Shown here: positions 15,797-31,588 of the stretch, piece after piece | Position numbering within the stretch: the stretch's first letter is position 1 | How the letters are laid out: each line of letters starts with the position of its first letter | The notes under the pieces: generated by a model | Database searches by the model: none | Told to the model about the DNA's origin: nothing | Seen by the model: the letters and a program-made list of their open reading frames with translations, nothing else | Made by a program: the position numbers and the translations under genes | NCBI GenBank assembly: GCA_026418195.1 | Contig: JAOABU010000044.1 | Span: 1-39,464 of the forward strand | Source: Spirochaetota bacterium | Lineage (GTDB): Bacteria; Spirochaetota; Spirochaetia; DTKZ01 | DNA length: 39,464 nucleotides | Reading direction: 5' to 3'

Positions 15797-16204
15797 TCAA
15801 GGGAGGAACCGTTTCCGTTTTCTGCGAAAGAGTTTCCGAAAGCATTGAATCAGTTTCAACCAGATTCTATAAAAGAATCCTGGGTTGCGCAGCTTTTCCA
15901 ACCGATCGGACCCCATAGACAATTCATCCAGGGTAAAGTCTTTTCGTTGGATGTTTTCCTCTATCTCCATCTCCAACTGATCGATATCCTCGGTTCTATT
16001 CACTACCACTACCGGGATGGTTTTCCAACCCAGCTGTTTCGCAGCCATGAGTCTTCGATACCCTGCAATGAGGGTGTATTCGGGATCGACCACGATCGGT
16101 TGAAGAAGTCCGTACTTTCGCATGCTATCCATTAGAGAGGAAAGATCCCCCAAAGACTTGCGCAGTCGTTTCCTGACCTTTATCTCCTCGATTCGTACCT
16201 GCAT
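15797..16204 (-). CDS. Stand-alone ParB/sulfiredoxin-fold protein with basic amphipathic tail
   Basis: A 135-residue protein with the ParB N-terminal domain: MQVRIEEIKVRKRLRK, SLMDSMRKYGLLQPIVV, LIAGYRRLMAAKQLGW and IEENIQRKDFTLDEL are the conserved boxes in order, including the GxRRxxAAK and ENIQR segments associated with CTP binding in ParB. The helix-turn-helix and dimerisation domains of chromosomal ParB are absent. Instead the last ~25 residues form a strongly basic stretch with regularly spaced Phe, Trp, Leu and Ile that would make an amphipathic helix. ATG 16204 is preferred, with GAGAGGT six bases upstream, over the TTG at 16219. It follows PBP1A by 11 bases on the same strand and ends six bases from the convergent P83/100 gene. 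Confidence 0.8.
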   Translation of the reverse strand: MQVRIEEIKVRKRLRKSLGDLSSLMDSMRKYGLLQPIVVDPEYTLIAGYRRLMAAKQLGWKTIPVVVVNRTEDIDQLEMEIEENIQRKDFTLDELSMGSDRLEKLRNPGFFYRIWLKLIQCFRKLFRRKRKRFLP

Positions 16205-16215
16205 CAGGATACCTC

Positions 16216-18723
16216 TCAATCGAGTAAAGGATTGCGGCTTTCCTTCTTTCCCGTAGAAGGTTGAGTTGTTGGCATCGAGGGTTTTAAAGCAGGAGAGGAA
16301 GATCCTGTTAGAATACGTGGATCGATCTGTAAACCCACACTAGGCATTGTATCTTCTAAGGGTACTTCCTGGGGAAGGATGGCATTCCGTAGACGGTCTA
16401 GGGTAATCTGGTTTCTCTCTGTTTCAAACTCATGTAAGTCATCGAATTTTTTAGGTTCAGTTCCAGCAATGAAAATCTCCTGAATCGTCTTCCCCGTGTA
16501 TCCAGGAGGAGGAATTAGGCCAGATCGGGCAGTTACAGTCATGCTTACGATACCGTCTGGTCGTGGAAAATCTTTTGGAGGAAGGTTCGTGTGTATATCC
16601 TTCATGAACCGAGCCCAGATTGGACCGGGAACGGTAGCTCCTGTTTGATTGATTCCCAAACTGTTCCCAGGTTGATCGAATCCGAACCAAATGGCGGTTG
16701 TGTAGTAGGGAGAATACCCTACAGTCCAAATATCCGACCAGTTCTGAGTGGTTCCAGTTTTACCGGCCATTGGCATGGGAAGGCCATCTACCGTATTCTT
16801 TGCGTACGCCAGGGTCCCATATTCTATGGTGGATTTCATGATATCCGTCATGATGTACGCCGTTTGTGGGCTTATGATTTGGGCAGCCTTCCCTTTCTTT
16901 CGCTGGGCGTTCCTTAGTTCTTTTTCAGGTTCAAGGATAATCTTCCCATTCCTGTCTTCAATGTATCGGATGGCCAGGGGCACAACCTCTTTGCCCTGAT
17001 TCGCAATAGTAGCAAACGCTCGAGCCATCTGGATGGGAGATATACTGATAATTCCCAGCCCTAAGGGATACTTCCTTGGGAAGGTGCGATCGATTTCATT
17101 CGGATCTTCGATTCCAAGCAATGCTGCTGCCGTCTGTATAGCTGCATCGAACCCTACCGCATCGAGAATTTTCAAGGAAGGAACGTTCATCGATTTTGCC
17201 AGAGCGGTGCGCACCAGAACCGGCCCCTGCCATTCACCCTTGTAGTTCATGGGTGTATAGGGGGTACCGTCGTCATTCCAGAATACCACAGGACCATCGT
17301 ACAGCATGGTTGCAGGGGTGATCTTTTTCCGTTCTACCGCCGCTGCATAGTACAGAGGCTTAAAGGCGGAACCTGGCTGTACTTTCGCTTGAACGGCTCG
17401 GTTAAACTGATTGATACTTTCGAAGCGGCTTCCCCCGACCATTGATAGAATGTACCCGGTGGAATTTTCAAGGGTAATTAAGGCTCCCTCTACAGTGTTT
17501 TTTTTGGCGCTTTTTTGTGCTTTTGAGTATCCGATTCGGGCTGCAAACTTTAGATCGTCTGACCCCATCAACATGGAAGCGATATCCAACACGGGATTGA
17601 TCCTTTTTTGGTAGTGAGCCATCGATTTTTGTCGGCTCTTGGTTCCCGCAACCCGGATGTCTTCGATGTTGAAGGTGAGCGAGATTAGGTCAACGATGGG
17701 GATGAACTTTTCCTCTGCAAATACCATCCGGTTCGCAGAGGAAGCCTGATAATCGGCATTGGCTTTGGTAATTCCCTCCCTCATGAGTTGATCAGCTCGT
17801 TCCTGAAAGTCTAGATTGAGGGTGGTATGAACGATGAAGCCATCCTTGTAGATGTCCAGCGAACCGTAAAGCAATTCGTTCAACTCTTGCCGCACGTATT
17901 CACTGAAATAGGGGGCCTTATCTTCCCGTTCTAAGAATGCAGTGGAGGAACTGCTACGGGTATAATCATAGTTACTCCAGTATTCTTCGAAAGACTGATC
18001 CGCATCCTCCTGGGTCGCATATCCTAAACGAACCATTTGCTGAAGCACTTCGTATTGGATTTTTTTCAGTCGATTGGGGTATCGGATAGGGTTGTACCGC
18101 ACAGGGTTTGCCAGTTGAATCACTAACGCTACCGATTCTGCCAGAGTCAAATCCCGAGCTGAGTGGTTGAAGTAGAACCTGCTAGCCGCCTCTACCCCAT
18201 ACACTCCTGAACCAAAGTACATTTTGTTCAGGTACAATTCCAATATTTCGTACTTCGTGAGACTTCGTTCCAACTGCAGTGCCCACCAGAGCTCCTTCAA
18301 TTTTCGAGTAAAGGAAATTTCGGCACGATTCGCATAAAGATGTCCTGCGATCTGTTGGGTAATGGTGCTTCCACCAGAAAAGTAACGTCCTAACAGCAAG
18401 TTCAATCCTGCCCTCACCGTACCTCGAAGACTAAACCCGTGGTGGTTAAAAAAGTCTTGATCCTCCCTCGTGATGAGGGCGTAGATCAAATGGCGGGGAA
18501 GTTCATCTATCGAGACGATCTCTCGTTTTTCATCGGAAAAGAACTCTGTGATAAGCCTATCTTTGATATCCAAAATCTGCGAAGGAACTGCGGGTTTATA
18601 ATCCCCAATATTTTCGAAGTTCTGAATATTCTTTGTGGCCCCAATTGCGATTCCGATTCCAATTCCTATGAGAACAGCGCAACAGGCTGTAATGATCAAC
18701 ACTAAGCGTACCTTTTGGATCAT
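16216..18723 (-). CDS. Class A penicillin-binding protein 1A
   Basis: Bifunctional peptidoglycan glycosyltransferase and DD-transpeptidase, 835 residues, anchored by one N-terminal membrane helix (VLIITACCAVLIGIGIGIAIG, ~9-29) with the rest in the periplasm. The GT51 domain has REDQDFFNHHGFSLRGTVRA, GGSTITQQ and LYLNKMYFGSGVYGVEAASRFYF. The transpeptidase domain has the SxxK box GSAFKPL, the SxN box SMNVPSLK and the KTG box GKTGTTQNW. The C-terminal ~110 residues are Pro-rich and poorly conserved. The frame is open upstream to 18885, but that would place a terminator inside the coding region and add an unrelated N-terminus, so ATG 18723 is preferred. No clear ribosome site is seen; a promoter pair ends seven bases upstream. 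A ParB-fold gene follows in the same unit. Confidence 0.93.
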   Translation of the reverse strand: MIQKVRLVLIITACCAVLIGIGIGIAIGATKNIQNFENIGDYKPAVPSQILDIKDRLITEFFSDEKREIVSIDELPRHLIYALITREDQDFFNHHGFSLRGTVRAGLNLLLGRYFSGGSTITQQIAGHLYANRAEISFTRKLKELWWALQLERSLTKYEILELYLNKMYFGSGVYGVEAASRFYFNHSARDLTLAESVALVIQLANPVRYNPIRYPNRLKKIQYEVLQQMVRLGYATQEDADQSFEEYWSNYDYTRSSSSTAFLEREDKAPYFSEYVRQELNELLYGSLDIYKDGFIVHTTLNLDFQERADQLMREGITKANADYQASSANRMVFAEEKFIPIVDLISLTFNIEDIRVAGTKSRQKSMAHYQKRINPVLDIASMLMGSDDLKFAARIGYSKAQKSAKKNTVEGALITLENSTGYILSMVGGSRFESINQFNRAVQAKVQPGSAFKPLYYAAAVERKKITPATMLYDGPVVFWNDDGTPYTPMNYKGEWQGPVLVRTALAKSMNVPSLKILDAVGFDAAIQTAAALLGIEDPNEIDRTFPRKYPLGLGIISISPIQMARAFATIANQGKEVVPLAIRYIEDRNGKIILEPEKELRNAQRKKGKAAQIISPQTAYIMTDIMKSTIEYGTLAYAKNTVDGLPMPMAGKTGTTQNWSDIWTVGYSPYYTTAIWFGFDQPGNSLGINQTGATVPGPIWARFMKDIHTNLPPKDFPRPDGIVSMTVTARSGLIPPPGYTGKTIQEIFIAGTEPKKFDDLHEFETERNQITLDRLRNAILPQEVPLEDTMPSVGLQIDPRILTGSSSPALKPSMPTTQPSTGKKESRNPLLD

Positions 18724-18914: not shown

Positions 18915-19937
18915 TTAGTCCTCATTTATCAAAATGTCAAGATAAAGGGAAACACCATAGGATTTGCCCTGCTCCATATAGAATCGTTTGCTTACTTGGT
19001 AGTCTCCCAAGCGAAAACTGAAAGTATGTTCTCCTGGTTCCAATGTAAACTCTCCTTGGCTGAGAGGTATGGGTTTGCCATCCACAAATACATGGGTCCC
19101 AAGGGGAGCATTGATGTGAACCGTGACTTCCTTTTTCACAAAGGTAGCCTCTACGGTAACTACTTTTCCCTTTTCTAGGGCAACTGTGGTCTGAAAAGGA
19201 GGAAATCCATCAATCTCTATCCGAAAATTTTTTAACCCAGGTTCCATATTGAGGCTCTCTTCCTTCAGTTGAAGAGCTTGGTCGTTGTGAAAAATACGGG
19301 TCTTTTCGATAGGTACCGGACCTTTAGGCGATTTTATTAAAAAGCGTACTTTTCCTAGATCCTTGAACAGAGGGCGCACCTGAACCTTGAACTCGGCTTT
19401 TAAGGCTAGTTCGGGGATTCCTTTCATGATCGGAAGAAAGGTGAACAGAAGGGGAAACATCCCTTTTTCTACTGGCTTGTCAAGAATCACGGTATCAGGG
19501 GCCAAGGAAAAGCTCGTCCTTGTTTGTAAGGGTATTTGCACGTACAGTTTGCGTTCATAAACAAAAGGTTTGAAGTATAGGAGGGTTCCTTCATAGGATT
19601 GTGGAAGGGATGGTGAGGACAGTACAGGGGAAGGGGAAAGTTTTCCGAACAGGTAAAACGCATAGGTTCCACGGTATGTTTGGGCTTCCTTAGGAGTTTC
19701 GATAAATATCTCTACTCCTTTGAGGAGGTCTTGCTCATCCTCGAGGGAAATCAACCATAGATCTTCCAATTTTACGGATAGCACAGGGGATTCGGGGGCT
19801 CCATTGCCCATTCTGCTGGATTGCAGGATCCTACCCCTCACAATATCCGCTTCACTGTTGACTGAAAATCCGGAAAGTATCAGCGTCCAGAGCAGGAATA
19901 CCATTGGTTTCCACTGTATTTGCATGTGTGTCATCAT
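18915..19937 (-). CDS. Exported PEGA-domain protein, unknown function
   Basis: A 340-residue protein with an N-terminal hydrophobic export signal (~12-30, ending SEA). It is mostly beta-strand. The C-terminal part, ~268-335, matches a PEGA domain: VTVHINAPLGTHVFVDGKPI, then GEFTLEPGEHTFSFRLGDYQ. PEGA domains are found in surface or cell-wall-associated proteins. The rest has no recognised family. It is the last gene of the operon led by PHP and mlaE, overlaps the M23 peptidase stop by four bases, and is followed by a strong terminator. Several start codons are possible; ATG 19937 (MMTHMQIQW) overlaps the upstream stop, and the third Met, four codons in, would give a more compact signal peptide. 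Confidence 0.8.
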   Translation of the reverse strand: MMTHMQIQWKPMVFLLWTLILSGFSVNSEADIVRGRILQSSRMGNGAPESPVLSVKLEDLWLISLEDEQDLLKGVEIFIETPKEAQTYRGTYAFYLFGKLSPSPVLSSPSLPQSYEGTLLYFKPFVYERKLYVQIPLQTRTSFSLAPDTVILDKPVEKGMFPLLFTFLPIMKGIPELALKAEFKVQVRPLFKDLGKVRFLIKSPKGPVPIEKTRIFHNDQALQLKEESLNMEPGLKNFRIEIDGFPPFQTTVALEKGKVVTVEATFVKKEVTVHINAPLGTHVFVDGKPIPLSQGEFTLEPGEHTFSFRLGDYQVSKRFYMEQGKSYGVSLYLDILINED

Positions 19938-20860
19938 GGTTTTGATTCGATCCTCTTCGGAAGCAATCGTTCAGGGTCCACAGGTCTTCCTTTTTGTCTC
20001 ACTTCGAAATGCAGATGCGGACCTGTAGTGGCTCCGGTCATACCCACTGTGCCCACCATCATACCGGATTCTACCGATTGATTCAATTGTATCGATTTAG
20101 AGTCTAAGTGTCCGTAGACAGTTTGATAGTCCCCCGCATGTTGAATAATCAGGTAGGACCCAAGAATAGGATCCACACCACTTTCGATTACCTTCCCATC
20201 CCTGGCCGCAAAGATAGGAGTACCCCGTGGGGCTGCCAGATCGATCCCTGCGTGAAAATGAGGTTGACCCGTTATGGGACTAATTCGTTTCCCATAGGAG
20301 GAGGAAAGGGTGACCTGCTTCAATGGAAACACGAACAGGATCTGGAGAAAGAATGCTCGTTCCACTGAATGAAACCGTTCCTGGGCTAGAAAGCGAAAAG
20401 TCCGTCCTTCCACTTCAATGGAGGCACCTTCCAGTTTCCTCCAAGAAAGCATGATTCGCTCCATTTCGTTCCTGGGTGTCTCTGGAAGGAACAATCCAAC
20501 CTGATTCGGTATAAGGAGTCTACGTCTCCCAAGAGGAAGTCCAGAAGATTCTATTGAGTTGAGGGTTGCAATCGATTCGTAGGGGAGGTTGAACCGTGCG
20601 GAAAGAGAAAATATGGTATCCTCCTCTGTTGTAAAGTACTGATAGAGGATAAGAGGGGGGAGGGGTAACCCTTGTTTCATTCTCTCGTACGAGCGAGTAA
20701 CGTCTTCCTGTTGTTGTCTATAGAGAGGATCTTCCAAGTTCAACGCTCGGATATGGGGATAATCGGAGTATAGGAAAGAGAGAGACATGGATCCGCAAGC
20801 GAACCAGAGCCAATAGAACAACCGAAAAAAATACCCTAGAAAGTTACCGCTCACGTTCAT
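19934..20860 (-). CDS. LysM-like/M23 (LytM) metallopeptidase
   Basis: A 308-residue envelope peptidase with an N-terminal hydrophobic segment. WLWFACGS around C22 could be a relaxed spirochaete lipobox. Residues ~73-118 look like a LysM module (EDTIFSLSARFNLPYESIATLN, then LLIPN). The C-terminal M23 domain is intact: HFHAGIDLAAPRGTPIFAARDGKV gives zinc ligands H203 and D207, VYGHLD gives H251, and PHLHFEVRQKGRPVDP gives H282 and H284. Members cut peptide cross-bridges in peptidoglycan. It overlaps the preceding membrane-protein gene by 17 bases and the PEGA gene by four, deep inside the Mla operon, which hints that wall remodelling accompanies assembly of the transporter. Confidence 0.9.
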   Translation of the reverse strand: MNVSGNFLGYFFRLFYWLWFACGSMSLSFLYSDYPHIRALNLEDPLYRQQQEDVTRSYERMKQGLPLPPLILYQYFTTEEDTIFSLSARFNLPYESIATLNSIESSGLPLGRRRLLIPNQVGLFLPETPRNEMERIMLSWRKLEGASIEVEGRTFRFLAQERFHSVERAFFLQILFVFPLKQVTLSSSYGKRISPITGQPHFHAGIDLAAPRGTPIFAARDGKVIESGVDPILGSYLIIQHAGDYQTVYGHLDSKSIQLNQSVESGMMVGTVGMTGATTGPHLHFEVRQKGRPVDPERLLPKRIESKP

Positions 20861-21332
20861 GGCACCTGTGCAACCCTATCCCAAGCACAAAAAGAAACAG
20901 GAAACAAATCCCGACAGCAACCGTTCGGTTACCCTCTTGGTAGAAACGAAATGCACCCAAGAGCAGGAATAATTCTATCAGGAAAAATGCTGATCCACGA
21001 AATTTTGTACCTATTCGAGGGTGCAGTGCTTTCTGTAAAGGGTTCTTAGAACCCCTGAGGAATCGAAGGAAAAGAGGAATGAAGAGGCAACCAACCACGA
21101 TTCCAATCACTAAATAGCCATACAAGGTAGGATATGTGGTAGAAAGGTACCAGAGGGGAATCACAATGAGACTCACAGCAAGAAGTAGGGAGAGCAGAAA
21201 TAGGGCTACTTTTCCTAGGGTGCTTAAGAACCACCCATACCCTAAAAGGCAGTCACGGAATAGACGGTAAAGGCTATGGCGTTTTTTTTGTGGTTTCAAG
21301 GGCTTCTCTTGCTTCACGATAAAGTTTTGCAT
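20844..21332 (-). CDS. Small multi-spanning membrane protein, unknown function
   Basis: A 162-residue protein of unrecognised family. After a basic N-terminus there are about four hydrophobic helices: VALFLLSLLLAVSLIVIPLW, LYGYLVIGIVVGCLFIPLF, AFFLIELFLLLGAF and TVAVGICFLFLFVLGIGL. The tail is short and charged (HRCHERER). The frame from ATG 21332 overlaps the end of the TPR lipoprotein gene by 59 bases; a TTG at 21299 in the same frame would shorten this to 26, so the start is uncertain. It lies between the lipoprotein and the M23 peptidase in a gapless operon. Confidence 0.72.
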   Translation of the reverse strand: MQNFIVKQEKPLKPQKKRHSLYRLFRDCLLGYGWFLSTLGKVALFLLSLLLAVSLIVIPLWYLSTTYPTLYGYLVIGIVVGCLFIPLFLRFLRGSKNPLQKALHPRIGTKFRGSAFFLIELFLLLGAFRFYQEGNRTVAVGICFLFLFVLGIGLHRCHERER

Positions 21333-22203
21333 CTATTGATTTTCCTGATTTTTCCGCAGCCTCTTCCAGCCGTTTCAGGGAACGTTCCATTCCCGAACGA
21401 TGGTTCAGTGCTCTGTATACCAAGTAGGATCGAGAATAGAGATCGAAAGCTTCTAACGGATTACCGGATCTTTCTTTTAAAAATCCTAAAAGGAGAAGAT
21501 CCTGTGCAATACCCATGCTATTCTCCATCTGTTTATCGTACTTAAGGGCAGTCTCCGCATCGCTCATCGCTTGGGAAAGGTTTCCCTGGGTTTGGTGAAT
21601 CAGGGCAAGCAAGTAATAGTTGGAAGCCAATTCCCCGAAGTTCTTGAGTTCCAAGTTCATTGCTACTGCTCGAGATATCGCTTGTTCCGCTTCCTGGGAT
21701 CTCTTAAGAGCTTGTAAAGCTGCACCCAAGTTATGATAGTAAACACTATACTCCACGGCCCAGGGAGGTGTCTGGGGGATTAGGGAACGGTACTCCTCTA
21801 GCAAGGATTGAGCTTGTGAAAAAGCTCCCCTTTGTAAAAGAACCCCTGTTAGGTGATTCACCGTTTGTAGGATGAACCGATCCTTCCGGCTTGATTTGGC
21901 GATATCTAGGGCAAAAGAAATATGAGCTTCTGCTTCGGAAGGCATCCCTAGTTGAAGGTAAGTTTTACCCAAGGCGTTGTAGGCTCCAATAATTCCCTCC
22001 GTGTCGTCTACCGAGGCAAAATAGTTCTTTGCCAGCAGGTACAGTTGAAGGGCTTGTTGATAATCCGCATCTTGGTAGTAACGATTTCCAAACTCCATGT
22101 ATTGGGTGGCTAGGTTACGCTTGTCAAACACCTCCTCCTTTGGAGGGGGAACGGAAGAGCAAGCGCTTAAAAGAATTAGAATCAGGGAAATCCAGTATCT
22201 CAT
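21274..22203 (-). CDS. TPR-repeat lipoprotein
   Basis: A 309-residue lipoprotein. The signal peptide ends in LILLSACSS, with C15 as the probable lipidated residue. From ~30 on the sequence is a run of tetratricopeptide repeats, for example FGNRYYQDADYQQALQLYLLAKNYF, GIIGAYNALGKTYLQLGMPSEAEAH and ALIHQTQGNLSQAMSDAETALKYD. TPR lipoproteins usually act as periplasmic scaffolds. It begins two bases after the mlaD stop. In Gram-negative Mla systems a lipoprotein (MlaA) handles lipids at the outer membrane, but this one has no MlaA features, so a scaffold role is the safer inference. Confidence 0.86.
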   Translation of the reverse strand: MRYWISLILILLSACSSVPPPKEEVFDKRNLATQYMEFGNRYYQDADYQQALQLYLLAKNYFASVDDTEGIIGAYNALGKTYLQLGMPSEAEAHISFALDIAKSSRKDRFILQTVNHLTGVLLQRGAFSQAQSLLEEYRSLIPQTPPWAVEYSVYYHNLGAALQALKRSQEAEQAISRAVAMNLELKNFGELASNYYLLALIHQTQGNLSQAMSDAETALKYDKQMENSMGIAQDLLLLGFLKERSGNPLEAFDLYSRSYLVYRALNHRSGMERSLKRLEEAAEKSGKSIDAKLYREAREALETTKKTP

Positions 22204-22205
22204 GG

Positions 22206-23282
22206 TTAAAACTCCTCCATCCTGTACCCTTTCTGGGTAGTGGGAATGGGTTGCTTGGGAGGTATTCCGCCCCGTAGAAAGGGATTGTTCCGCAACCCTT
22301 CCAGTACGTCCTGTCCTTTCCGGATCGCCTGCCTACCTTCTTCAAGGGCTCCAAGAATGCGAGGTTGTGTGGTATTGAGGAAAGAGGCAAACTGCCTCAG
22401 TTCTGCAAGGTTTGACTGAACTTCCTTCAGGATCCCTTCGATCTGATCGAACAGACGGTTATTATCATCAAGAAAAGTTGCAATAGAACCCTTCGGATCC
22501 AGTAATTTTTGGACCAATCCTGTAGGATCTTTCAACACCTCTGTACCTTCCTTGAGATTGCTGGTGATATCATTAAGATTTGTGGTAATCCCCGTAGCAT
22601 TCATTAAAAGCTGGTCGATGGACTGGCTTAGACTCTTTGTGGTAAGAGCGATATGTTCCGTAATTTTTTCAGATTGACGGAGCGTACCTGCCAGAGGGCT
22701 TCCACCCTTTCCTTCTAGGGAAGCTGTGACAGTACCCAAGAGAACATGAACGGAAACCAGAACTCGATTTAGGTTTTCTAGAATGGGATCTATTTCTCCT
22801 AATAGGCGAGTAACAGCGTCATCGGTTTTAGGGATCTCTACTAGTTTCGCCTCTAAAAGATACTTTCCTTCAGGGGTATCGAGGGAAGGAATAAAGGAGT
22901 TCTCCGGGATGGGTTCGGTAGGTTTTTTCCCCTGATGGAACACCAGTCCTCCTCCTAATCCAAGAGGATTGGTTTGCAGTTGTAGGATAGAGTGTTCGTA
23001 TACCTTGGGATAGAAGGTGTCTTGGATATAGAAATCGATCTCGACGTCATTTTCTGGAGAAAGGGAAAGTTTCGTGATCTTGCCAATAGTGAATCCTTTG
23101 AATGTGATGGGCATCCCTACACTCAAACCATTGGCTGTTGGGAATCGACTCTTGAAATAGTAATTTTTTGCAAACCATCGTTGATTTATCCCCATCAAGA
23201 CTAGGACGATCGTTATGAATAGGACTCCTACAACGACGAAGACTCCCACGATCTGGCTGGCAAATCGAATTTTAAACTTCAT
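22206..23282 (-). CDS. mlaD: MCE/MlaD-family lipid transport protein
   Basis: A 358-residue periplasmic lipid-binding component of an MCE-type transporter. One N-terminal membrane helix (QIVGVFVVVGVLFITIVLVLMG) is followed by the MCE domain: YYFKSRFPTANGLSVGMPITFKGFTIGKITKLSL and DVEIDFYIQ up to ~115, including the LQTNPLGLGGG region. Residues ~150-330 are a long helical stretch, and the last ~20 are Pro-rich with no second membrane segment. MlaD proteins form hexamers bound to MlaE and MlaF. MlaD of Escherichia coli is about half as long, so this protein is of the longer type with an extended helical region. The gene starts six bases after mlaF. Confidence 0.92.
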   Translation of the reverse strand: MKFKIRFASQIVGVFVVVGVLFITIVLVLMGINQRWFAKNYYFKSRFPTANGLSVGMPITFKGFTIGKITKLSLSPENDVEIDFYIQDTFYPKVYEHSILQLQTNPLGLGGGLVFHQGKKPTEPIPENSFIPSLDTPEGKYLLEAKLVEIPKTDDAVTRLLGEIDPILENLNRVLVSVHVLLGTVTASLEGKGGSPLAGTLRQSEKITEHIALTTKSLSQSIDQLLMNATGITTNLNDITSNLKEGTEVLKDPTGLVQKLLDPKGSIATFLDDNNRLFDQIEGILKEVQSNLAELRQFASFLNTTQPRILGALEEGRQAIRKGQDVLEGLRNNPFLRGGIPPKQPIPTTQKGYRMEEF

Positions 23283-23288
23283 AGGCTC

Positions 23289-24095
23289 TTACTCCGTATT
23301 AGAATCCTGCAAAAGTTCCAGGATGTCTGTATCGTACACCGCTGCTTCACTCAAAACTTCAGAAATAACCTCGATCACATCTGGATTCTTACTCCTTACG
23401 ACTTCTCTGAAAAGTCCCTGCTCTACGATTTTCCCACCCTTGAGAATCACCAAGCGGTCCGCCAACTGGGAAGTCAATTCTGGACTATGGGTAGCGATGA
23501 TAAGAGTTTTGCCTTCCTGTTTTTGAGTTTTCAGCGTTCGGAGAATTCGTTCTACAGTGACATTATCTAGAAAGCTGGTAGGCTCATCCAGAAACAGGAT
23601 AGAGGGTTCCAGAACTAGGGCGCGGAGAAGAGAAATAAGCTTTCGTTCCCCTGCAGAAAGTTGCGCTGGTCGGAATTGGGGATCATCTTGGAAATCGAAC
23701 TCGGCAAGAATTCGGTGGATTTTTCGATCCAACTGTTCGATGGGTATGTTTCGGCGGTGGAACTGTAGGGGAAGAAGCAGGTTCTGGTATACCGTAAGGT
23801 TGGACCATAATGCCGCATCCTGAAAAGCGAATCCACACTGGCTTCGAAACTCGAGGAGTTCCTTTTCATTCATCCTCGAGAGGGGTTTATTGTTCACCCG
23901 CACCACTCCCTCATTGGGCCACAAGATTCCTGCTGCCACTTTCAGAAGGGTAGATCTGCCACTTCCGGAGAAACCCATTACCACGGTGCACTGGTGCAAG
24001 GGAAAGGTCATTGAAATCGAATCTAGGATTTTGATGTCTCCCCCAAAGAGACTCACAGCCTCCAGGGTAATACCGTTTTTTTCCCCTTCAGACAT
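23289..24095 (-). CDS. mlaF: MlaF-type ABC ATPase with non-canonical Walker A
   Basis: A 268-residue ATPase that should power the MlaE/MlaD transporter. Walker A reads GFSGSGRST (residues 41-49): the nucleotide-binding Lys is replaced by Arg (R47, codon AGA on the minus strand at 23955-23957). The rest looks functional: Q-loop FAFQDAALW, signature LSAGERKL, Walker B ILFLDEPTSFLD and switch IIATHSPEL. The C-terminal ~30 residues (VVRSKNPDVIEVISEV...) match MlaF homologues. It overlaps the mlaE 3' end by eight bases. A canonical Lys-to-Arg change usually weakens ATP hydrolysis in P-loop proteins, so activity is uncertain. Confidence 0.92.
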   Translation of the reverse strand: MSEGEKNGITLEAVSLFGGDIKILDSISMTFPLHQCTVVMGFSGSGRSTLLKVAAGILWPNEGVVRVNNKPLSRMNEKELLEFRSQCGFAFQDAALWSNLTVYQNLLLPLQFHRRNIPIEQLDRKIHRILAEFDFQDDPQFRPAQLSAGERKLISLLRALVLEPSILFLDEPTSFLDNVTVERILRTLKTQKQEGKTLIIATHSPELTSQLADRLVILKGGKIVEQGLFREVVRSKNPDVIEVISEVLSEAAVYDTDILELLQDSNTE

Positions 24096-24879
24096 AGTAC
24101 ACCAGCGTAATTATCGCATCGGCTAGGATACAGAGAATGAAACTTCTACCTACCGCTTTGATCGCCACCTGGGGAATCTCTGTGGTGGAACGCTCCACTT
24201 TGAATCCATAGTAAGTGGCAGTAGTAGAAATGATAATTCCAAAAGTAATGCTTTTTACAAGAGAAGAGATAACGTCCTGGGTTTTCAGGGTATTCAGTAA
24301 GTTGTATAGATACTCCTGTATTTGTAGAGGACTGATGAATTGGGTCACAAGGAAAGAGCCCAGTAATCCAAACAGATTAAAATAGAGATTCAATAAGACT
24401 AACGATATCGTGACTCCCAGGAATCGTGGAACGATTAAGTAGGCGATCGGATTGATACCAAAAGAAATGTACGCTTCAATCTCATGGGATACAATAGCGT
24501 TCCCTAGTTCCGTTGCGATGGCTGTTCCCGATCGGGCAATGATGATAAAAGCTGTGAGAATGGGTCCTAATTCCCGAGTAATGATCGTGATGAGGATGGT
24601 GTACATCAGTTTCCCCTGCCCAAATTGGGGAAGGATGCTGGACCCTTGTACGATGATCACCACTCCCAATGCCAAGGAAATGATGGCAATCACACTTAAA
24701 GCCTCTACCCCCGTGAACAGGATTTGCATGACCAGAACCCGGTATCCATATCCGAATTGCCTTTTTCGAATGAATCGACCTGTTTCGATGAGGATTTCCC
24801 AAAAATAACCAGCCGCGTAGAACGCTTGAGAAATCCCTACCAAAACGCGGTTCCCAATCTGTTCTAGGATCCTGCTCAT
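24088..24879 (-). CDS. mlaE: MlaE-type lipid transporter permease
   Basis: A 263-residue inner-membrane permease of the MlaE family. The conserved core is ITRELGPILTAFIIIARSGTAIATELGNAIVSHEIEAY, followed by INPIAYLIVPRFLGVTISLVLLNLYFNLFGLLGS and a C-terminal KSITFGIIISTTATYYGFKVERSTTEIPQVAIKAV. About five hydrophobic segments are visible. ATG 24879 is preferred over the TTG at 24897; it overlaps the PHP stop (ATGA). No MlaB (STAS) or MlaC gene is present nearby. TGGTATACT ends six bases before the ATG, so an internal promoter is possible. Confidence 0.93.
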   Translation of the reverse strand: MSRILEQIGNRVLVGISQAFYAAGYFWEILIETGRFIRKRQFGYGYRVLVMQILFTGVEALSVIAIISLALGVVIIVQGSSILPQFGQGKLMYTILITIITRELGPILTAFIIIARSGTAIATELGNAIVSHEIEAYISFGINPIAYLIVPRFLGVTISLVLLNLYFNLFGLLGSFLVTQFISPLQIQEYLYNLLNTLKTQDVISSLVKSITFGIIISTTATYYGFKVERSTTEIPQVAIKAVGRSFILCILADAIITLVYYV

Positions 24880-25727
24880 ACCTTCAGTATACCACAAGAG
24901 TTAGGGAGGAAGGGTTTGGCAAAGGAATCTTCGATCCACATTCCTTCTGAAGACCGGCCCAGGGATCGATCGGGAATCGAAGGGCCATGGAAATCAGAAC
25001 CCGCACTGACTAGAAGTCCTAACCGGTCTGCCATGGCTTCCCATTGGGCTCCCACTGCCTTTGTAACCCTAGGATGATACGCTTCAATCCCGTCGACTCC
25101 CATATCTTTGTACATACGGAGCACGGTTTCTGCTTGTTGGGATCCAAGACATAGGGTATCAGGATGGGCTATGAGAGCTTTCCCACCTCCGGAATGGATC
25201 AAGTCCACCCCTTCTTTGAGAGAAGGTGCTTTTTTCTTGGCGTAGTACGGTTTTCCCGGTGAAATAAACCGATGGAAAGCGTCCTCAATGGAATAGGCGA
25301 TTCCCTTCTGTACTAGATATTGAGCGATGTGAGGTCTTCCCACAATAGCTCCCCCCGCTAACTTCTTGATCTCCTCGTATTCTACAACAATTCCATCGGC
25401 TTGCATTTTAGCAAGAATGAGTAGGTTACGCTCCAATCGCTGAGCTTGAAGAACTTGTAGTTTTTTCCAGAAAGCTCCTTTCCAATCCCAGATCCCCAAC
25501 CCTAGTAGATGGAATTCTCCCCCCTCATACTCGATTTCGATTTCTATGCCTGGAATAAAGGTAATGCCTTTTTCGCTACAGACCCTCTCGGCTTCCAATA
25601 GACCGTCTATGGTGTCATGATCCGTTATGGCCAATACGTTCAATTTAAGACGGAGAGCCTCTTCCACCAGTTGTGTGGGAGTATAGGTACCATCCGAAGC
25701 ACTGGTATGGGTATGCAGGTCTATCAC
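24876..25727 (-). CDS. PHP-domain phosphoesterase
   Basis: A 283-residue protein of the PHP family (polymerase and histidinol phosphatase fold), likely a metal-dependent phosphatase or nucleotidase. Metal ligands are in DLHTHTSASDGTYTP, LAITDHDTIDGL, GIEIEIEYEGGEFHLLGLG, ALIAHPDTL and SAGSDFHGP; these five boxes cover the usual trinuclear site. Relatives such as the 3',5'-nucleoside bisphosphate phosphatase/RNase AM type have the same length. The frame is open from 25829 and an ATG exists at 25736, but GTG 25727 gives the family's usual start (IDLHTHTSASDG at once) and stands seven bases after a -10-like box. The stop overlaps the mlaE start. Why a PHP enzyme leads a lipid-transport operon is unclear. 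Confidence 0.88.
   Translation of the reverse strand: MIDLHTHTSASDGTYTPTQLVEEALRLKLNVLAITDHDTIDGLLEAERVCSEKGITFIPGIEIEIEYEGGEFHLLGLGIWDWKGAFWKKLQVLQAQRLERNLLILAKMQADGIVVEYEEIKKLAGGAIVGRPHIAQYLVQKGIAYSIEDAFHRFISPGKPYYAKKKAPSLKEGVDLIHSGGGKALIAHPDTLCLGSQQAETVLRMYKDMGVDGIEAYHPRVTKAVGAQWEAMADRLGLLVSAGSDFHGPSIPDRSLGRSSEGMWIEDSFAKPFLPNSCGILKV
24886..24894 (-). promoter_or_regulatory. Possible extended -10 promoter before mlaE
   Basis: On the minus strand TGGTATACT (an extended -10 motif, TGn plus TATACT) ends six bases before ATG 24879, inside the last codons of the PHP gene. No good -35 box lies 17 bases upstream. It could give mlaE its own leaderless transcript, but coincidence with the coding sequence is quite possible. 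Confidence 0.25.
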
Positions 25728-25734
25728 ACGACCC

Positions 25735-25763
25735 ATTGCACCGGAAAAACCCTTTTCCGTCAA
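25735..25763 (-). promoter_or_regulatory. Putative promoter of the PHP-mla operon, close to the start codon
   Basis: On the minus strand TTGACG (complement of 25758-25763) and TGCAAT (complement of 25735-25740) are 17 bases apart. The -10 box overlaps the ATG at 25736 and ends seven bases before GTG 25727, so the transcript would begin near the GTG and exclude the ATG. No ribosome-binding site is seen. Confidence 0.45.
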
Positions 25764-27055: not shown

Positions 27056-28081
27056 ATGGCACCAAAAGCGATGACTTTCAAAGCAAACTCAGTCATCTAT
27101 TTTAAAGGGGACATCAGCGACAAAATCTACATCCTTAAGTCCGGCAAAGTGAGTATGAACTCGGAGGATATCGAAACAGGCCAAGAAGTACGGGATCTTA
27201 TTCAAACCGGAGAGTTTTTCGGGGTAAAGTCAGCTTTAGGAAAGTATCCTCGCGAGGAAAGTGCAGTAGTATTGAGTGATGCGGAAGTGATCCAATTCAC
27301 TGTACCTGAGTTCGAACAATTCGTGGCTCAGAACACCCGTGTGATCATGAAGATGTTAAAGGTTTTTTCGAACCAACTGCGTAGGATCCATGCAAGGGTC
27401 AGTAGTCTTCTGGTCACAGAGGAAAAGACGGATCCAGAGAGCGGCCTTTTTGGAATCGGACAGTACTACCTAAATAAAAAGATGTATGCTCAAGCCCTTT
27501 ACGTGTTTCGTCGATACTTGACCTACTATCCATCAGGTAAGTTTGCTAGGGAAGCTGCCAATAATATCGCTTTGGCCGAACAGTATGCTCAAAAGTATGG
27601 CCAAGGCAAAGGACCTGAAATCGGATCATCTACTCCTGTTCCAGAGAAACATCCCACAGGGCCTACTCCCGCTGCTGCACGTGCGGAACTATCGGATGTG
27701 GCCAAAGTTTTCTACAATGGAGTTAGTTTGTTTGGGCAAAACAAGTTCCAAGAAGCTTTGGATGAGTTTAAAAAAGTAGCGGAGCAGAGGGAAGATGAAG
27801 AGTATTCGGTGAAGGCTCTCTTCGAAATTGGAAGGTGCCTATTCCAATTGAAACAATTCGATGCTGCTATTCGACAGTTTTCGGGCTTGATACAAAAGTA
27901 TCCTAAATTACCGGACCTACCAGAGGCCCTCTATTACATCGGCCAATGTTACGAGGGAAAGGGTGAGGGGGATCGAGCAATAGGCTTCTATAAAAAGATC
28001 CTTACTATGACGACCGAAGCTGATCCGGTCCAACGAAAGGTGAAGAAAGCCTTACGAGCATTGGAGGAAAAGTCCAAATGA
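27056..28081 (+). CDS. Cyclic-nucleotide-binding domain fused to TPR repeats
   Basis: A 341-residue cytoplasmic protein. Residues ~1-115 are a cNMP-binding (Crp-like) beta-barrel: FKANSVIYFKGDISDKIYILKSGKVSM, then GEFFGVKSALGKYPREESAVVLSDAEVIQF. No winged helix follows; instead tetratricopeptide units lie at ~135-185 (GQYYLNKKMYAQALYVFRRYLTYYPSGKFA) and ~215-335 (FYNGVSLFGQNKFQEALDEFKK, LFEIGRCLFQLKQFDAAIRQFSGLI, ALYYIGQCYEGKGEGDRAIGFYKKIL), separated by a Pro-rich linker. The barrel lacks an obvious RxAx(T/S) cAMP-contact motif, so the ligand is uncertain. GAGGAG precedes ATG 27056. It overlaps the next, DNA-binding, Crp-like gene by four bases, suggesting that the two proteins work together. 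Confidence 0.87.
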   Translation: MAPKAMTFKANSVIYFKGDISDKIYILKSGKVSMNSEDIETGQEVRDLIQTGEFFGVKSALGKYPREESAVVLSDAEVIQFTVPEFEQFVAQNTRVIMKMLKVFSNQLRRIHARVSSLLVTEEKTDPESGLFGIGQYYLNKKMYAQALYVFRRYLTYYPSGKFAREAANNIALAEQYAQKYGQGKGPEIGSSTPVPEKHPTGPTPAAARAELSDVAKVFYNGVSLFGQNKFQEALDEFKKVAEQREDEEYSVKALFEIGRCLFQLKQFDAAIRQFSGLIQKYPKLPDLPEALYYIGQCYEGKGEGDRAIGFYKKILTMTTEADPVQRKVKKALRALEEKSK

Positions 28082-28725
28082 ATTTGAATTTGGCAGCCTT
28101 CGAACGGTTCGCTGTCCGGTTTCAGAAAGGGGATATTATCTTTGTCGAGTATGAACCAGGGGATAGTTTCTACCTAATCCAGTCGGGAAGGGTTCAAATC
28201 TCCAAGATCATGGGGAATATAGAGAAAACCCTCGATATTCTTTATCCGGGGGAGATCTTTGGCGAGATGGCGATTCTGGAGGAAGCCCCTCGCTCTGCTA
28301 ACGCAATCGCGTTGGATAACGTGAAAGCTCTTGAGTTCAACCGAGCGAACTTCGAGATCCTCATGCGAGGGAACCCTGCGATCGCATTGAAACTTCTGAA
28401 ACTTTTCACCAAACGAATCTACGATCAGAGAAGGCGTTTCATGATTCTTACCCTGGACGACATTCAGGCGCGAGTGATGGATGTGTTCTTGATGCTAGCA
28501 GAAACCGACGCGGGGGGTCAGCAAGAAGGAGAAAAGCGGGAGTTCAAGACTACGATTGACGATATTGCCCACTGGGCTGGCTTACCTACGGAGAAGTGCA
28601 GGGAAGTGATCAATCACTTCATGAATCAACGCCGAATCGAAGTGCTCCCGGATAAGATCATCGTAAAGAACCTGAACGAGTTTGCCCGGTTCGTGAACTC
28701 TCGGAGAAAGACTTTGGCTACGTAA
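28078..28725 (+). CDS. Crp/Fnr-family transcriptional regulator
   Basis: A 215-residue regulator. The cNMP-binding barrel includes GDIIFVEYEPGDSFYLIQSGRVQISK and LYPGEIFGEMAILEEAPRSANAIA, where the GEMAxLxxxPRSANA stretch matches the phosphate-binding cassette of Crp proteins. A long helix (ALKLLKLFTKRIYDQRRRFMIL) leads to a winged-helix domain (~155-200) containing TTIDDIAHWAGLPTEKCREVINHFMNQRRIEV. A cyclic nucleotide is therefore a plausible ligand, unlike for the upstream partner. ATG overlaps the upstream stop, with AGGA about eight bases before it. Targets are unknown. Confidence 0.92.
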   Translation: MNLNLAAFERFAVRFQKGDIIFVEYEPGDSFYLIQSGRVQISKIMGNIEKTLDILYPGEIFGEMAILEEAPRSANAIALDNVKALEFNRANFEILMRGNPAIALKLLKLFTKRIYDQRRRFMILTLDDIQARVMDVFLMLAETDAGGQQEGEKREFKTTIDDIAHWAGLPTEKCREVINHFMNQRRIEVLPDKIIVKNLNEFARFVNSRRKTLAT

Positions 28726-30592: not shown

Positions 30593-31513
30593 TTATATCC
30601 TTGGTGCCTCTTCTGGACGTACGGGTTTTCCGTCCTTATACACCAGGAAATAGAGATCCGGTGTCTGATTGTATGGGTTCACCCCCAACGTACCGATTCG
30701 CTGACCTTTTTCCACCAAATCCCCGGGTTCCACGTTGGTAGTTTCGTTACCGGCATATACATAGAGGTACCCTTGATCGGATTGAATGATTACCACTTTC
30801 CCGAAACCCCGATACGGCCCAACCCAAGCTACCTTTCCTGAGGACACGGAATACACAGGATCCCCTGCTTTCCCTTGGAAGGAAATTCCTTCTAGCTTCC
30901 CGGTCAGTTCCTTTCGGGTGCCTGGATGGGGCCAATAGATGTTTTTTACCTGCGGAGAACTTTCCTTCGAACTAACCGTGCTAACTCCCGTTCCAGATGG
31001 ATCGCCGAGTACACCCTTCTTCTGTTGGGGATCTTCCGATCTCTGTTTCACGATTTTTTCAGGAGGTTGTGAAGAGGTAGCTTTTTCTTTTGTGACATTC
31101 GCTGGTTGCGATACTTCTGCATGTTTCCCTTCTAGGATTTTCGGTACATAGAGAGTGTCCCCTGGTTTAATGGTGGCCTGTGGCTGAAGGTTGTTGAGGG
31201 ACAGGAGGACTTCTACTTTGACTCCCATCTTTCTCGCGATCCCATACAGGGTATCTCCCTTTTGTACTAGGTATACGTTGGGGATGATAAGGTTCGTTCC
31301 TACTCGTACCTTGGAAGGATCGTTGATCCCATTGGCTTTCAATATCGCTTCCAGGGGAACCTTGAATTGTCGGGAGATGCTGTAAAGAGTCTCTCCCTCT
31401 TTAATGGAGTACTGGTAGGTTTCCTGTGCTTGCAAAGTAAGGGAGAACAGGAAAAAGAACATGGAAATGAGGAGTCCCAACAAACCGAAGTATCCCGACT
31501 CAGTATTCTTCAT
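30593..31513 (-). CDS. LysM protein with degenerate M23 (LytM) domain
   Basis: A 306-residue exported protein: signal peptide (~1-30, ending LQAQ), two LysM peptidoglycan-binding modules (~34-79 with EGETLYSISRQFKV and ~81-125 with KGDTLYGIARKMGV), a Ser/Pro-rich linker, and an M23-type domain (~206-303). The fold signature remains (GDPVYSVSSGKVAWVG, GKVVIIQS, GDLVEKGQRIGTLG), but the zinc ligands are gone: the HxxxD site reads LEGIS, the GH position reads YAGN and the HxH motif reads DLYFLV. It is probably a non-catalytic LytM factor like the EnvC or NlpD activators of amidases. Start choice is open between ATG 31513 and ATG 31528; neither has a clear ribosome site. Confidence 0.88.
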   Translation of the reverse strand: MKNTESGYFGLLGLLISMFFFLFSLTLQAQETYQYSIKEGETLYSISRQFKVPLEAILKANGINDPSKVRVGTNLIIPNVYLVQKGDTLYGIARKMGVKVEVLLSLNNLQPQATIKPGDTLYVPKILEGKHAEVSQPANVTKEKATSSQPPEKIVKQRSEDPQQKKGVLGDPSGTGVSTVSSKESSPQVKNIYWPHPGTRKELTGKLEGISFQGKAGDPVYSVSSGKVAWVGPYRGFGKVVIIQSDQGYLYVYAGNETTNVEPGDLVEKGQRIGTLGVNPYNQTPDLYFLVYKDGKPVRPEEAPRI

Positions 31514-31525
31514 AGGTATTAATAC
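31514..31525. repeat. 12-base perfect palindrome at the LysM gene start
   Basis: GGTATTAATACC is a perfect inverted repeat lying between the two possible start codons of the LysM/M23-like gene. It could be an operator or chance; no second copy was noticed. Confidence 0.3.
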
Positions 31526-31588
31526 CATCGGTGTTTTGGAAGGTATATTTTAGATGAAAGGGAGGGAGTTTAGAGATTTATTCCGCTA

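Follow-up and report, generated by a model that had tools for sequence, protein, structure and literature searches.

How phospholipids reach an outer membrane that lacks lipopolysaccharide (LPS), such as that of the spirochaetes, is an open question, and it is raised by a gene cluster encoding an MlaEFD-type lipid transporter in the genome of a Spirochaetota bacterium (assembly GCA_026418195.1; 3.13 Mb in 158 contigs, 98.6% complete), whose closest named relatives are uncultured Spirochaetales. The window analysed here is a stretch of 39,464 nt from contig JAOABU010000044.1. On its minus strand, eight open reading frames (ORFs) encode, in order, a PHP-domain phosphoesterase, MlaE, MlaF, MlaD, a tetratricopeptide repeat (TPR) lipoprotein, a small membrane protein (SMP), an M23 metallopeptidase with a LysM domain and a PEGA-like exported protein. 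A preliminary description of the window, made without database searches, had reported this order and had proposed that the additional genes together provide a spirochaete-specific way of crossing the periplasm, with local opening of the wall. We find that MlaE, MlaF, MlaD and the TPR lipoprotein constitute one module, in which the TPR lipoprotein is the invariant partner of MlaD within the class, and that the remaining genes belong to a separable wall module. It is somewhat probable that the former works as a unit of its own, an ATP-driven conduit that carries phospholipids across the envelope and serves the LPS-free outer membrane, with the TPR lipoprotein docking the MlaD tails.

A TPR lipoprotein gene tied to mlaD

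The transporter genes recognised in the preliminary description were borne out by profile searches. The MlaE permease (24088..24879; PF02405, 195 bits), the MlaF ATPase (23289..24095; ABC_tran, 97.9 bits) and MlaD, a protein of 358 amino acids (aa) with an MCE domain (22206..23282; PF02470, 40.9 bits), all score above the Pfam cut-offs and are encoded together, as in other MCE transporters. The TPR lipoprotein gene (21274..22203; 309 aa, seven TPRs, TPR_12 58 bits, lipobox LLSAC) starts 2 nt beyond mlaD. As previously described, all eight genes overlap or lie close together: according to the ORF coordinates, overlaps of 4 nt (PHP/MlaE), 8 nt (MlaE/MlaF), 59 nt (TPR/SMP, if the first ATG is used), 17 nt (SMP/M23) and 4 nt (M23/PEGA) leave a single further gap, of 6 nt, between mlaF and mlaD, which is the largest.

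We compared the order of the genes flanking mlaD in 32 other genomes and in 80 named spirochaete loci, the latter retrieved by a pattern that covered part of the MlaD tail and counted only where enough flanking sequence was available. In all 77 named loci that extend at least 500 nt past mlaD, the TPR gene comes directly after it. Loci labelled Treponema sp. (L103, L115) and Gracilinema caldarium (L122) are among the carriers of MlaEFD-TPR, which many genomes of one family (f25) lack. Across 60 genomes of the same class (G000–G059, the source genome being G000), MlaD orthologues (>100 bits) are present in 33, a count that leaves out a match at E 7.6e-4 in G028. TPR orthologues (>120 bits) occur in the same 33 genomes and in none of the other 27, although in G009 only a fragment is seen, at a contig end. 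In G006, which is 80% complete, MlaD was found and MlaE was not, while G017 and G026 carry MlaE of other types only, with neither this MlaD nor a TPR orthologue. The pair also relocates jointly, the TPR gene accompanying mlaD in the genomes where MlaEFD-TPR lies away from the wall genes (G034, G054 and G035).

Outside the class the association is looser. In a sample of 198 genomes from the phylum, MlaD was detected in 60 (E ≤ 1e-20) and a TPR match in 38 (E ≤ 1e-30). The TPR gene lies beside mlaD in 35 of the 60, the matches in G071, G179 and G228 lying in long ORFs not beside mlaD. Weaker matches were examined in 25 loci (L166–L190), those of G071 and of the 24 genomes that have MlaD but no such TPR match, and revealed eight further adjacent TPR proteins at lower score (L166, L167, L168, L169, L172, L175, L178 and L182); in G071 the contig ends just past the start of a lipoprotein-like ORF. 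The MlaD-TPR pair is hence present in 13/13 MlaD-bearing genomes of the class and in 30/47 in the rest of the phylum sample, with this one locus cut off. Fifteen of the 35 loci with an adjacent TPR gene were also fetched (L191–L205); L204 showed no MlaD ORF at the fetched locus, though its genome, G118, has both genes adjacent by profile matches. At L184, from a genome of another class (G162), an M23-family gene follows mlaD in the place of the TPR gene.

The source genome and the others sampled from its class lack two partners of the E. coli-type six-component Mla system. Neither MlaA nor MlaC was detected in any of the 60 genomes (positive controls, 2/14 for each), and the same was true of LpxC (controls, 4/14), which suggests that the transporter serves a membrane without LPS. 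The absence of MlaA and MlaC noted in the preliminary description thus extends to the whole sample; its statement on MlaB holds for the cluster, where none of the eight genes encodes a STAS protein, no genome-wide MlaB search having been made. The absence of MlaA and MlaC agrees with the rule that Grasekamp et al. give for MlaABC outside the Proteobacteria (PMC10665443). That 2023 survey also accounted for the missing Mla of Borrelia and Treponema by their lack of LPS. Because MlaEFD is present in 33 of the 60 LpxC-free genomes, the lack of LPS does not suffice to explain why MlaEFD is missing elsewhere, and MCE transport in the phylum cannot be regarded as bound up with LPS asymmetry.

A wall module in which MlaEFD-TPR is lodged

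The preliminary description had correctly placed a small membrane protein, an M23 peptidase and a PEGA protein next to the transporter and its TPR lipoprotein. The SMP (20844..21332; 162 aa) has no match in Pfam or NCBIfam. The M23 metallopeptidase (19934..20860; M23 111 bits, LysM 21.6 bits) is intact, as had been stated, with H203, D207, H251, H282 and H284 invariant in 21/21 alignment rows. The PEGA-like protein (18915..19937; 340 aa) scores 20.2 bits, just below the PEGA cut-off of 20.8, and is a conserved family in alignment. Upstream of mlaE, the PHP-domain phosphoesterase (24876..25736; PHP 51.7 bits) resembles 3',5'-nucleoside bisphosphate phosphatase and RNase AM at scores below the family cut-offs (NF041577, 201.9 bits; NF047791, 194.7 bits); the ATG at 25736 is more likely to be its start than that at 25727, given originally. 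The strong terminator said to end the cluster was found at 18826-18805 on the minus strand, with a 9-bp stem containing six G-C pairs, followed by nine T; its stem is the longest among 11 terminator-like sites in 15.7–27.2 kb, a region where shuffled sequences yield 11.4. Past this terminator the next gene on the same strand, overlooked in the preliminary description, encodes a class A penicillin-binding protein (PBP) of the PBP1A family (16216..18723; TIGR02074, 609 bits, above cut-off), which also follows in relatives. A promoter-like match (10/12) at 18940-18912, at the end of the PEGA gene and upstream of the terminator and the PBP gene, could be part of a leader with attenuation or a chance match, as 13 promoter-like sites were found against 14.6 expected.

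That all eight genes encode a single machine, in which the bridge crosses the wall via openings cut by the M23 peptidase and the SMP and PEGA proteins are further parts, would be consistent with the conservation of the gene order in many families, with M23 downstream of mlaD in 41 of the 65 named loci that extend 2.5 kb or more past it and PBP in 28/49 with at least 6 kb. PEGA (>160 bits; 31/33 MlaD-bearing versus 5/27 other genomes) and M23 (>230 bits; 31/33 versus 15/27) are also commoner where MlaD is present. The conservation next to mlaEFD that the preliminary description had asked to be checked nevertheless holds for the TPR gene and fails for its neighbours, with SMP found in 35/65 loci (at least 2.5 kb) and PEGA in 33/56 (at least 4 kb), and 24 of the 65 loci hold MlaEFD-TPR without the M23 block. 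Conversely, G026, G031, G047 and G051 have no MlaEFD of this type and yet keep M23-PEGA-PBP together, preceded by SMP in G026 and G047. Where MlaEFD-TPR lies elsewhere in the genome, the wall genes form PHP-M23-PEGA-PBP in G034 and G054 and M23-PEGA-PBP in G035. Partial sets are seen in G028 (PHP-SMP-M23-PBP) and G055 (PHP-M23-PBP). SMP is recognisable in 33/60 genomes, some of them without MlaEFD. The eight-gene machine is accordingly improbable: of the earlier proposal, an envelope crossing involving the TPR lipoprotein stands as likely, while a single apparatus of all the extra genes does not. As each module exists without the other, the idea of local wall opening finds no support, and the standing of the M23 peptidase as a wall-opener for the bridge is lowered.

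The PHP gene, too, goes with the wall genes. It lies upstream of MlaEFD in 18/55 named loci with at least 3 kb upstream, and among the 44 loci with enough sequence on either flank, PHP and M23 are both present in 14, M23 only in 13, neither in 17 and PHP only in none; it therefore belongs with M23 and not with MlaEFD, and we rejected it as a part of the lipid pathway. Moreover, it directly precedes M23 in genomes without MlaEFD or with MlaEFD elsewhere. These results mark PHP-SMP-M23-PEGA-PBP as a separable wall module in which MlaEFD-TPR is lodged. On a PBP tree of 31 genomes (midpoint root; L034 and L050 left out, their PBP being missing or cut), the joined arrangement occurs on either side of the deepest split, and seven changes are required to account for the three states. 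Most simply, the joined order would be old, and MlaEFD-TPR would have been lost or moved several times since, but the midpoint root and several long branches keep this from being firm.

The clustering of the TPR lipoprotein gene with those for PBP1A and M23 could also mean that its product, in the manner of E. coli LpoA or NlpI, regulates one of these wall enzymes and that the gene only by chance follows mlaD. A regulator of this kind should be present wherever the PBP1A/M23 cluster is, and the TPR lipoprotein is not: PBP1A and M23 are kept in genomes without it (G026, G031, G047, G051 and others). When the modules lie apart, the TPR gene stays with mlaD (G034, G054, G035 and 24 named loci), and outside the class it adjoins mlaD, M23 following mlaD in one examined locus only (L184), without a TPR gene. 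LpoA and NlpI were not among the 50 structure matches listed for the TPR lipoprotein, which leaves a likeness to them possible. We regard a role in wall regulation as very unlikely, and retain the TPR lipoprotein as the partner of MlaD.

Several other features were observed around the wall module. Directly after the PBP gene, 15797-16219 (minus strand) encodes a short ParB-domain protein; in several relatives, too, PBP is followed on its strand by an ORF comparable in size (about 123-135 aa). Two adjacent proteins encoded at 27056-28725 (plus strand), the first with TPRs, resemble cyclic-nucleotide-binding (Crp-like) proteins; in several relatives, divergent ORF pairs comparable in size (about 316-343 and 212-226 aa) are situated upstream of the wall module. 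At 30593-31528 (minus strand), a LysM protein has an M23-like end that, by eye, lacks the HxxxD and HxH motifs and is therefore probably degenerate and non-catalytic.

A barrel-less MlaD and the proposed docking of its tail

The AlphaFold2 model of MlaD (57 alignment rows) predicts a transmembrane (TM) helix (8-36) and an MCE domain (40-132), both with a predicted local distance difference test (pLDDT) score of about 95, followed by helices at 156-189, 201-251 and 276-331 (pLDDT 45-68). No strands are predicted beyond the helices, so that the beta-barrel of the transenvelope MlaD of the Veillonella type is absent from the model, and the last 27 residues (332-358) are disordered, with pLDDT 39 at the C-terminal end. 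If they stack end to end in the manner of other MCE needles, the 141 helical residues, at 1.5 Å each, would span about 210 Å. Although predicted to be disordered, the tail (NNPFLRGGI...YRMEEF, encoded at 22206..22289) is as conserved as the folded part, residues 331-358 averaging 2.68 bits, the MCE domain 2.59 and the helices 1.85. Arg354 is kept in 53/56 rows and Phe358 in 51/54. At the conserved positions, each of the six codons for Arg is found, as are both for Phe, which argues for selection at the protein level; a conservation due only to the downstream ribosome-binding site was rejected on this codon variety for Arg354, Phe358 and NNPLLRGGI, the acidic residues being left aside. The fetch pattern biases NNP conservation in the named loci, but the alignment built from whole-genome matches (A1) gives the same NNP conservation.

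The lipobox Cys15 of the TPR lipoprotein is kept in 65/65 rows, and its model comprises, past the signal, 14 helices forming seven TPRs (pLDDT 95; predicted TM-score, pTM, 0.88). LGN and kinesin light chain bind peptides, and in TPRs the A helices line the groove. Both proteins are among its profile relatives of known structure, which, engineered TPRs aside, include LGN/Pins, kinesin light chain and Rap. LGN (3ro2) is the best among the structure matches listed (Z 28.2, root-mean-square deviation 3.4, 277 residues), and KLC1 bound to C-terminal cargo peptides is matched at Z 20.7-20.8. Conservation is higher in the A helices (1.90 bits) than in the B helices (1.51 bits; Mann-Whitney p 5e-4, with residues that are not independent), so that the model combines a TPR fold with a conserved concave surface, as expected of a peptide-binding superhelix. 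In Pfam and NCBIfam the protein matched only TPR-type and other repeat families and none of the PqiC type.

Based on these features, MlaE and MlaF in the inner membrane would carry a presumed MlaD hexamer, whose MCE ring would continue into a long helical needle without the terminal beta-barrel of other transenvelope MlaDs. At its far end, a lipid-anchored TPR superhelix, putatively in the outer membrane, would capture the conserved C-terminal tails of MlaD and thereby dock the needle, phospholipids being the probable cargo. By analogy with PqiC and MpcA in proteobacteria, docking by tail binding is the most likely role of the TPR lipoprotein, and for the outer-membrane end that has been missing it is a definite candidate, ready to be knocked out.

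Several observations weigh against this interpretation. The binding of tail to groove is deduced from fold class and conservation, and confidence in the modelled helical part of MlaD is low (pTM 0.42). The acidic residues of the tail may be conserved for another cause, since they are encoded where the ribosome-binding site of the TPR gene probably lies. In the phylum sample, mlaD lacks an adjacent TPR gene in 16 of the 60 genomes that bear it, none of them from the class, so the lipoprotein is not needed by every MlaD of the phylum, and the tail sequence differs outside the class. By eye, and without statistics, many tails at outside loci without TPR end in Lys runs or straight after the helix, and many at outside loci with TPR have Arg beside acidic or aromatic residues.

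MlaD and the TPR lipoprotein might also be merely co-expressed, serving one pathway, such as lipid or lipoprotein delivery, without touching, with the tail acting in hexamer assembly or secretion. Contact between the two is a deduction, and NNPLLRGGI could cap the hexamer in the manner of the single-strand mini-barrels modelled for barrel-less MlaDs elsewhere (PMC10665443). The strict one-to-one linkage, together with a peptide-binding fold beside a free conserved tail, speaks against co-expression alone, which we consider rather unlikely, and favours docking of the tail by the TPR lipoprotein.

Comparison with known envelope bridges

The source genome itself contains a second MlaE, MlaF and MlaD set (contig C97 of G000; locus L003, 7059-10385, plus strand), whose MlaD of 543 aa is followed by an unrelated gene for a domain of unknown function (DUF) and has no TPR neighbour. 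The last 190 residues of this MlaD look beta-rich (beta/alpha moment 0.326/0.260, versus 0.277/0.396 in the helical part), giving the impression of a barrel-like end. The genome thus appears to hold one bridge of each kind, a barrel-ended one without a TPR partner and the barrel-less one of the window with it. In L115, L122 and L201, the second MlaEFD set follows MlaEFD-TPR in tandem, so that both bridges can share one cluster.

Mce1 of mycobacteria is a heterohexamer with other accessory proteins, unlike the window system. The two are alike in that the MCE domain of Mce1 (PDB 8fed, a listed match) is followed by long helices forming a needle. The minimal MlaEFD of Veillonella parvula also lacks MlaABC, and its elongated MlaD has been proposed to bridge the envelope (PMC10665443); this MlaD ends in a beta-barrel, which the window MlaD lacks and to which the second system of the source genome comes closer. 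In PqiABC of E. coli (PMC10897342), a lipoprotein at the outer membrane receives the C-terminus of an MCE needle, but PqiC is an octameric ring, PqiA and PqiB are not MlaE and MlaD, and there is no TPR.

The closest resemblance is to Mpc of Brucella (MpcE-F-D-A), which combines an MlaEFD-type transporter and a needle MlaD, without MlaC, with an operon-encoded outer-membrane lipoprotein proposed to cap the needle (PMC12436622). That lipoprotein, MpcA, is homologous to PqiC, whereas the spirochaete lipoprotein is modelled as an all-helical superhelix of seven TPRs, and, unlike Mpc, the system occurs in spirochaetes in which no LpxC was found. Among the openly licensed PMC papers searched, we found none on a TPR lipoprotein with MlaEFD, an association that is apparently undescribed there. 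It is possible, if short of probable, that these genes define a spirochaete type of bridge, in which a barrel-less MlaD needle has its C-terminal peptides clasped at the outer membrane by a dedicated TPR superhelix lipoprotein, in LPS-free cells and alongside a barrel-type bridge in one genome; if so, it would add a third design to the built-in barrel and the PqiC ring.

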